From the NCBI GenBank assembly GCA_039096225.1, contig JBBPEB010000003.1, positions 372,001 to 436,000 on the forward strand: DNA of 64,000 nt, given 5' to 3'. Shown in pieces: positions 51,660 through 53,447 of this stretch (position 1 is the stretch's first letter; each line of letters begins with the position of its first letter). The notes under the pieces are model-generated. The model saw nothing but the letters and a program-made list of their open reading frames with translations, did not search any database and was not told the origin of the DNA. This DNA is from Blastocystis sp. Blastoise (taxonomy: Eukaryota > Sar > Bigyra > Opalinata > Blastocystidae). Position numbers and translations under genes: made by a program.

Positions 51660-53447
51660 TTAGGCTTCATATTTATTAAACATAGAGCATAACAATCCTA
51701 AGGAGCTTATCTTTGTACGGCAAATATATCTTGTTTTACTCATTATTTCAATATCAATAAATGTAGCTTCCATAGCTAATGAATATTCTTTACCATATTC
51801 AGTAGAAGTATGTTCAATTGTACCATTATAATAATATACTCTTCCAGGATATTTCTTTATATACTGTTGTTTTACATGAGTTGAATCGGATATAATTGCA
51901 CTATATAATATATAATATAATATAATATAATATAATATAATATATACAATCGAACAGTAGGATTAGAAGCATATTTCTCAGCAAAAGAAGAGAAAAAATT
52001 CAAATTTTGATTTTGAAGCAAAAGCATATTTACATGACTATCTTTTTTGAAATCAGCATCTTTTCCTGTTCTTATTTGTAATCCTAATACATTCCAATCA
52101 TCCCAATCTTTCGTAATAGCATTTGATTTCTCACGAATACTCTTATTGACTGTTATTAACTCATTATGTATTAAATAAAACATTGTATTTAAAACTTGAA
52201 ATTCTGACATATTTCCAATAACAAATCCAAAATCTGTTAAAAAATACTTAGCTGATGGATTCATAAACCAATTTAAACATATAGCTGCTCGACTATTTAC
52301 AATAAACATTTGAGCAGTATTATTAAATATTGGCTCTATTCTTGCTTGCATAGTTTGGTTAGCCGTTCTATATTGACGAAATAGAATATTTTTACTCTTC
52401 CAATCTATAAATAATAATAATAATAATAATAATAATAATAATAATAATAATAATAATAATAATAATAATAATAATAATAATAATAATAATAATAATAATA
52501 ATAATAATAATAATAATAATAATAATAATAATAATAATAATACTAAATAAATATAAACATAATAATAAACATATTACAATGAATTGTTCTCTTTTTGAAA
52601 GGAAAATCATAATAATTATATATCGTGTTCCAATCGGTAACTATATAAAAAAAAATAAAGAATAGTAGTAATAACCATATATATACTTGCAAATACTCTT
52701 TTAGATAATAAGGCTAATATGAATGTACTAAACATTCCTGAAATTCGATTAGAAACACCATCACTTGTTGGTTTAAATATGGCAGCACGAACTTTACCTT
52801 GAGGAATCTTATTATTATTTTGTATTCTTTTCCAGTCTTCAATATTATCTCTACATTTCTTAGGACAAAATATATCTAAATGTTGCTTCATGGTATCTCC
52901 AAGAGGAATTATTAGTGTTCCATTAGCATCTACAATAGCCTCATTCTGATATAAATTCAATTTTTCAATATTATTAGTATTTAGATTAGATTGAAGAGGA
53001 ATTTTATTATTATTATTAATATTATTATTATTGTTATTATTATTATTATTATTATTATTATTATTATTATTATTATTATTATTATTATTATTATTATTAT
53101 TATTATTATTATTATTATTATTATTATTATTAGAACTATTATTATTATAATCAACATAAGAACTATTAGATAAAATAATACTAGAATTCTTCGATAAAAT
53201 AATACTAGAATTCTTCGATAAAATAATATTAGAATTATTAGACAAAATAATATTATCTTTGAATGGACCACCATGAGTTAATACATCTTGATGAGTATCA
53301 TTTAACTTGTTATTAATGATTTTATTATGAGCAATCATTTGTTCTTTTGTTTCTAAAAAAAATAAAAAAAATAAATATAGATATATCAGAGTGCCTACCC
53401 ATCACTGAAGAAGAAAAAACAGATATTTGTTGCTTGTTGGTTGACAT
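51660..53447 (-). CDS. Fucosyltransferase-like protein, copy 2
   Basis: Paralogue of the gene at 37304-38958. The start is ATG 53447 (MSTNKQQISVFSSSVM), then an intron (GTAGGC...TTTTAG) to ETKEQMIAHNKI. The N terminus has no clear signal anchor. The stem is replaced by IILSKNSS repeats and a poly-Asn run (53130-53017). The catalytic region repeats NIEKLNLYQN to DNIEDWKRIQNN almost unchanged, then SDGVSNRISGMFSTFIL, a diverged middle, then VLGLQIRTGKDADF, ISDSTHVKQQY, EYSLAMEATFIDIEIMSKT and a C terminus SSLGLLCSMFNKYEA, TAA (51660). Two catalytic-region introns are shared with copy 1; a third (51947-51901) is absent from copy 1. Another intron holds about 135 bp of (TAA)n. Confidence 0.6.
51901..51947 (-). 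repeat. 47-nt TA/TATAT-repeat intron absent from the paralogue
   Basis: On the minus strand it runs GTATATATTATATT...ATTATATAG, between CGATT and TGCAATT. The paralogue has CGATTTGCAATT uninterrupted at 37550/37551. Confidence 0.9.
52410..52545 (-). repeat. (TAA)n intronic microsatellite
   Basis: About 135 bp of TAA repeat in the second catalytic-region intron of fucosyltransferase-like copy 2. The orthologous position in copy 1 has a much shorter (TAA)n/(TA)n intron. Confidence 0.85.

Follow-up and report, generated by a model that had tools for sequence, protein, structure and literature searches.

An intron of 47 nt in the second of three close copies of a fucosyltransferase-like gene of Blastocystis sp. 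Blastoise is very probably ancestral; copy 2 would have retained it, and it would have been lost in the line of descent of the catalytic cassette that copies 1 and 3 now carry. The evidence for this ancestry comes from the codon and phase that the intron (intron C) shares with other members of the gene family, its spread over the 15 members, the tree of these members and the mosaic make-up of copy 3. The stretch of DNA analysed, referred to below as the window, comprises 64,000 nucleotides (C33:372001-436000 of a 33.3-Mb genome in 34 contigs) and harbours copies 1 and 2.

Tract in copy 2 and introns of the gene family

The features of copies 1 and 2 are as follows:

51901..51947, minus strand: intron C of copy 2, 47 nt, GTATAT...TATAG, phase 2, splitting a Phe codon TT / T
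37550..37551, minus strand: empty intron C site of copy 1 (CGATT/TGCAATT)
51660..52972, minus strand: catalytic part of copy 2, NIEKLNLYQN to TAA stop, with introns A, B and C inside
52641..52686, minus strand: intron A of copy 2, 46 nt, phase 1
52405..52577, minus strand: intron B of copy 2, phase 1, 173 nt composed mainly of TTA repeat
37304..38473, minus strand: catalytic part of copy 1, to TAA stop, with introns A and B inside and without intron C
38125..38187, minus strand: intron A of copy 1, 63 nt, phase 1
37999..38058, minus strand: intron B of copy 1, 60 nt, phase 1

Direct reading bore out the two observations from which the first-pass annotation had started, namely a GT...AG insertion of 47 nt made of repeat only in copy 2 and an uninterrupted junction in copy 1. 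On the reverse complement of 51901-51947 the tract begins with GT, ends with AG and contains only A and T in its interior; it is flanked by GTTCGATT on one side and by TGCAATTATATC on the other, and the sequence of copy 1 over the junction 37550/37551 is GTTCGATTTGCAATT. The third close copy, located beyond the window end on the plus strand (C33:446.4-447.7 kb), is also without the tract. The first 13 codons upstream of the site are identical in all three copies, with few differences downstream. As 47 nt is not divisible by 3, retention of the tract would shift the frame and lead to a stop within ~25 codons; its removal from copy 2 restores NPTVRFAIISDST, the conserved frame. The ends of the tract match the family's own GT-AG splice sites, the donor GTATAT and the acceptor TATAG being the commonest among 35 other family introns (18 and 23 of them, respectively; four of the 40 family introns were set aside as ambiguous), and the tract is almost surely a spliceosomal intron. 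Chance does not explain it, since a GT...AG intron occupies the same codon and phase in ten other members. The two remaining introns had been described as lying at shared positions, which is correct for intron A of copies 1 and 2; intron B of copy 2, by contrast, begins one codon earlier than in copies 1 and 3, through a slight displacement of its donor site.

The same genome was searched twice at the protein level, and the resulting 22 and 27 rows, every one of which was assigned, yielded at least 15 members of the family (copies 1, 2 and 3, C8, C32, C19, C19b, C16a, C16b1, C16b2, C4a, C4b, C29, C14 and C20), and a search of the genome with the Pfam NodZ profile added none to these. By its profile matches, the family is assigned to the fucosyltransferase superfamily (NodZ/FUT8/XG_FTase): ten of the 11 members scanned match NodZ at E up to 1 (best 7.9e-11), with C19 and C32 above the Pfam cut-off, seven match XG_FTase (plant xyloglucan FUT; best 4.5e-8) and four match FUT8 (best 1.3e-5). 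The family profile matched 13 distinct sequences in the PDB, all of them named fucosyltransferases (best E 1e-11). Copy 2 alone, however, reaches only E 0.018, which is below the Pfam cut-off.

Intron C was found at one codon and in phase 2 in 11 of the 15 members (copy 2, C8, C16a, C4a, C16b1, C16b2, C4b, C29, C14, C20 and C19b), the split codon being TG / G in ten of them and TT / T in copy 2. The site is empty and read through in the other four, copy 1, copy 3, C32 and C19, the last two forming a distant pair. Exons joined by machine gave the same phase 2 for intron C in these 11 members, phase 1 for intron B in all 15 and phase 1 for intron A in 14; the ends of intron B in C8, C16b1, C20 and C19b, for which the first candidate of the script was different or missing, were placed by hand. 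Introns A, B and C are all removed in the NCBI protein P0002 (C14), which lends indirect support to splicing at this site, and in P0001 (copy 3) A and B are taken out and the empty C site is read through; the NCBI protein searches returned none for copy 1 or copy 2. The exception for intron A is C16b2 (C16:729.0-730.4 kb, L033), in which this intron is missing exactly and B and C are kept, a third loss in the family and one that is not at the 3' end.

Elsewhere in the window, positions 26557-27261 hold a lengthy, coding-like tandem repeat whose units measure 42-213 bp and whose consensus starts with GTATTAGTACCAAATGAGAAACCA in several rows. The motif TGTTTGTT, presumably the polyadenylation motif of Blastocystis, occurs six times in the window against 2.2 expected, and in the window search no occurrence lay closer than 1 kb to either copy 1 or copy 2.

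Direction of the change

Trees were built without the columns of the site itself and rooted at the midpoint, with paralogues of the same genome as outgroups. C8, which has intron C, is sister to the group formed by copy 2 and the pair of copies 1 and 3 (support 100/99, 99/99 and 99/99; 100/99, 99/99 and 100/98 for the same nodes in a repeat tree from hand-typed proteins), and C32 pairs with C19 at 100/100. The fewest changes of intron C on this tree amount to two. A single loss shared by the four intronless members was rejected by the AU test (p 2.4e-6; 2.8e-5 with hand-typed proteins), and a single clade of copies 1-3 and C32/C19 was rejected less firmly (p 0.015; 0.012 in the hand-typed tree). 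On such a topology the change on the branch of copies 1 and 3 reads as a loss for any root outside these two copies, and that of C32/C19 likewise unless the root sits on their own branch. The weak points of the tree are the long branches of C8 (2.1) and C29 (2.0) and the low deep support in its other half. Two protein searches for a homologue from another species, the reach of which covers relatives sharing exact words, gave only proteins of this organism. Reacquisition of the intron by copy 2 through conversion from a distant paralogue was rejected because the flanks in copy 2 match those of copies 1 and 3.

The first-pass annotation had left both gain and loss on offer and had named presence of the intron in other family members as the sign of loss. 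The intron was found in 11 of the 15 members, copy 2 included, and loss is supported by the intron of C8 and of nine more members besides copy 2. The broader statement that repeat introns come and go is accordingly borne out at this site for the going alone.

Mechanism of the probable loss and the mosaic copy 3

In copies 1 and 3 the junction is exact and without any exon change; of the 47-nt deletions tested, only one yields the product seen in these copies, and neither side of the site shows microhomology. Intron C, the 3'-most one, was lost in two clades, intron A in one member and intron B in none, although these events are few. The genome also contains 21 reverse-transcriptase matches, 20 of them over the Pfam cut-off and 17 in open frames of more than 1,000 aa. 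The exact junction, the 3'-most position and the presence of reverse-transcriptase genes fit a loss in which a spliced, reverse-transcribed transcript would have recombined with the gene and thereby removed intron C, and the clean junction without microhomology favours this route, which is regarded as the likeliest and as a reasonably probable one. The same route had been proposed earlier from the clean junction and the 3'-most position; the latter argument is weak, since A is the only intron missing from C16b2, with B and C still in place. Two events provide no statistic for the mechanism, and exactness is also what would be expected if selection on a conserved stretch left only exact plain deletions.

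Three pairs of the reverse-transcriptase matches lie 8,591 bp apart (C10:55024/63615, C13:624268/632859 and C14:664277/672868) and a fourth 8,496 bp apart (C29:412516/421012). The paired matches are mostly in open frames of ~2,600 aa and perhaps represent head-to-tail elements.

A plain genomic deletion, that is, a DNA break on the lineage of copies 1 and 3 with a repair that happened to be exact and was kept by selection, is a serious though less probable explanation. Selection would act against inexact products because the stretch VRFAIISDS is conserved, and the single loss in C16b2 is internal. Moreover, C32 and C19 carry a Tyr after the Trp, the product expected of an event that put the first four bases of the intron in place of the first four of the exon; this product is predicted in nine of the ten members that have the intron besides copy 2, the exception being C16b1, which would yield a stop, and Tyr after Trp was seen in none of the 11 members that have the intron. 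The change in C32/C19 may hence be a small deletion with GT microhomology. However, the Tyr is equally well explained by an exact loss and one base change, and the absence of microhomology in copies 1 and 3 speaks against a deletion there.

Copies 2 and 3 lie in an inverted duplication, at mirror positions on either side of a spacer of ~5.6 kb:

50812..61444 (C33:422.8-433.4 kb): arm 1 of the inverted duplication, containing copy 2
C33:439.08-448.5 kb, reversed: arm 2, containing copy 3, beyond the window

Over the 5.8 kb beside the spacer, 31 of 32 alignment windows of 200 columns (one of them gap-only) have 0-1 mismatches and the remaining one has five. Over the gene, 12 such windows diverge by 3.9-40.5%, and the final two windows of the arm, past the gene, by 0.5 and 1.3%. 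The fucosyltransferase-like gene is thus an island of divergence within a near-identical inverted duplication. On the 5' side of copy 2, ~1.76 kb (window ~53.7-55.5 kb) is without a counterpart in the other arm.

Copy 1 and copy 3 are 78-100% identical per 100 aligned columns over the catalytic cassette of the latter (C33:446.4-447.7 kb), and on both sides of the cassette copy 3 resembles copy 2, not copy 1. As judged from these alignments, copy 3 has a mosaic make-up, with flanks like those of copy 2 around an intronless cassette like that of copy 1, a pattern that points to ectopic gene conversion; the cassette would have been exchanged between copy 1 and the arm holding copy 3, the direction being inferred. 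The two arms disagree in the N-terminal part as well (56-91% per 100 columns), the source of which is not copy 1. Given this latter difference, an older divergence left untouched by homogenisation between the arms is an alternative to a recent replacement.

Probable traces of conversion are also found around the intron site itself, which is codon 269 of an alignment in which codons 256-337 form a block. Within the block, copy 2 is separated from copy 1 by 3.0 and from copy 3 by 2.0 of 52.3 silent sites, as compared with 46.0 of 116.8 and 43.7 of 116.2 sites in codons 54-255 (Fisher p 2.6e-6 and 1.2e-6, values that are too small because the limits of the block were set after the differences had been seen). 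The only purely silent whole-codon difference in the block is at codon 273 and is particular to copy 1, and seven block codons differ in protein in some copy; codons 1-53 are also alike among the copies. The description of copies 1 and 2 as close paralogues therefore applies around the site and not to codons 54-255, where ~39% of silent sites differ. Selection for protein change in codons 256-337 obtained no support (Fisher p 0.44 and 1.0). The near identity of silent sites around the intron position, next to coding sequence that differs strongly, suggests recent ectopic gene conversion over both sides of the site.

Three orders of events fit the block: a spliced cDNA donor erased the intron in a single event, the loss followed the conversion, or the conversion skipped a difference that already existed. 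The first of these can be put forward tentatively, as a rather unlikely scenario in which the spliced cDNA of copy 2 or of a similar gene served as conversion donor, overwriting ~82 codons and erasing the intron at once, the cassette then being exchanged between copy 1 and the arm. If true, an intron loss would have been caught with its conversion block still visible.

An assembly artefact, in which the inverted duplication would be a fold-back of two haplotypes with copies 2 and 3 as alleles, or the tract itself would be erroneous, is improbable. The near identity of the arms beside the spacer speaks for a fold-back; yet the genome holds two full-length matches to the arm test piece and one to the spacer piece (263 matches to the arm piece were obtained, those besides the two full-length ones being taken to be mostly simple repeats). 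An error in the tract is unlikely with the intron present in 11 members, copy 1 is a separate empty locus, and the direction of the change would be the same even if copies 2 and 3 were alleles.

Repeat content and comparison with known systems

The 11 introns at site C range from 47 to 394 nt, all with different lengths, and their A/T-rich content differs by eye. Simple repeats cover on average 0.33 of a family intron against 0.09 in shuffles (36 of the 40 introns, four ambiguous ones omitted; median length of the 36, 119 nt) and 0.74 of the copy 2 tract. Intron A, the position of which is common to 14 of the 15 members, is 234 nt long with a repeat cover of 0.95 in copy 3 and has a cover of 0.0 in copy 2. 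To judge by these sequences, the position of an intron is stable and its content turns over, so that the A/T repeats would be a later turnover inside an old intron.

Gain of the intron, by a TA microsatellite that was inserted or expanded in copy 2 and then became an intron, is accordingly very improbable: although the tract is 74% simple repeat (9% in shuffles) and missing from copies 1 and 3, and gain by repeat expansion is reported for Cryptococcus (PMC2395259), an intron of the same codon and phase is present in ten other members, the site is not found empty in the sister and outgroup genes, a new insertion would have to hit the same one of ~1,044 coding positions (taking even odds per position), and shared old introns of the family, such as intron A of copy 3, are often filled with repeats. 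The repeat content had been thought to fit a gain, which is contradicted by the 11 of 15 members, sister C8 included, that have intron C at this codon and phase. What looked like the birth of an intron from a microsatellite thus becomes an intron loss, and in AT-rich genomes, whose old introns become filled with repeats, repeat content by itself should not be taken for a gain.

The Cryptococcus case (PMC2395259) is similar in that introns differ in repetitive DNA and internal losses also occur. There, however, a repeat tract made new introns, whereas here the position is common to distant members; a gain of that type was rejected, as the empty site in relatives that marks it is missing. In grasses, 93 recurrent intron losses and no recurrent gain are given in PMC4256211. 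The likeness lies in the same intron being lost more than once and in apparent gains that often turn out to be repeated losses, the difference in orthologues of several species being compared there and a single gene family of one genome here. A further parallel is offered by Dictyostelium, for which PMC4683709 lists 441 and 202 precise losses in two species and favours a reverse-transcription model. Exact removal, unchanged flanking coding sequence, a very AT-rich host gene and reverse-transcriptase genes are common to both systems, but those losses were counted between orthologues, and the present case concerns one site among paralogues in a recombining mosaic cassette.

Fast intron loss is not new to Blastocystis either, since 11 of 12 aligned minor introns were lost between two genomes of the genus according to a survey (PMC10639083). 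For Blastocystis ST1, ST4 and ST7, PMC5608401 gives a modal intron of 30 bp, making up 54, 36 and 21% of introns, and genomes of 12.9-18.8 Mb with 39.6-54.6% GC; the genome studied here (33.3 Mb, window GC 23.5%) is far from these published values. Precise and recurrent intron loss is a known kind of event, and the case described here is ordinary in kind and unusually well resolved. With three near copies, an intron-bearing sister and a block of silent identity around the site, it provides a compact system in which cDNA-mediated loss and plain deletion could be separated.
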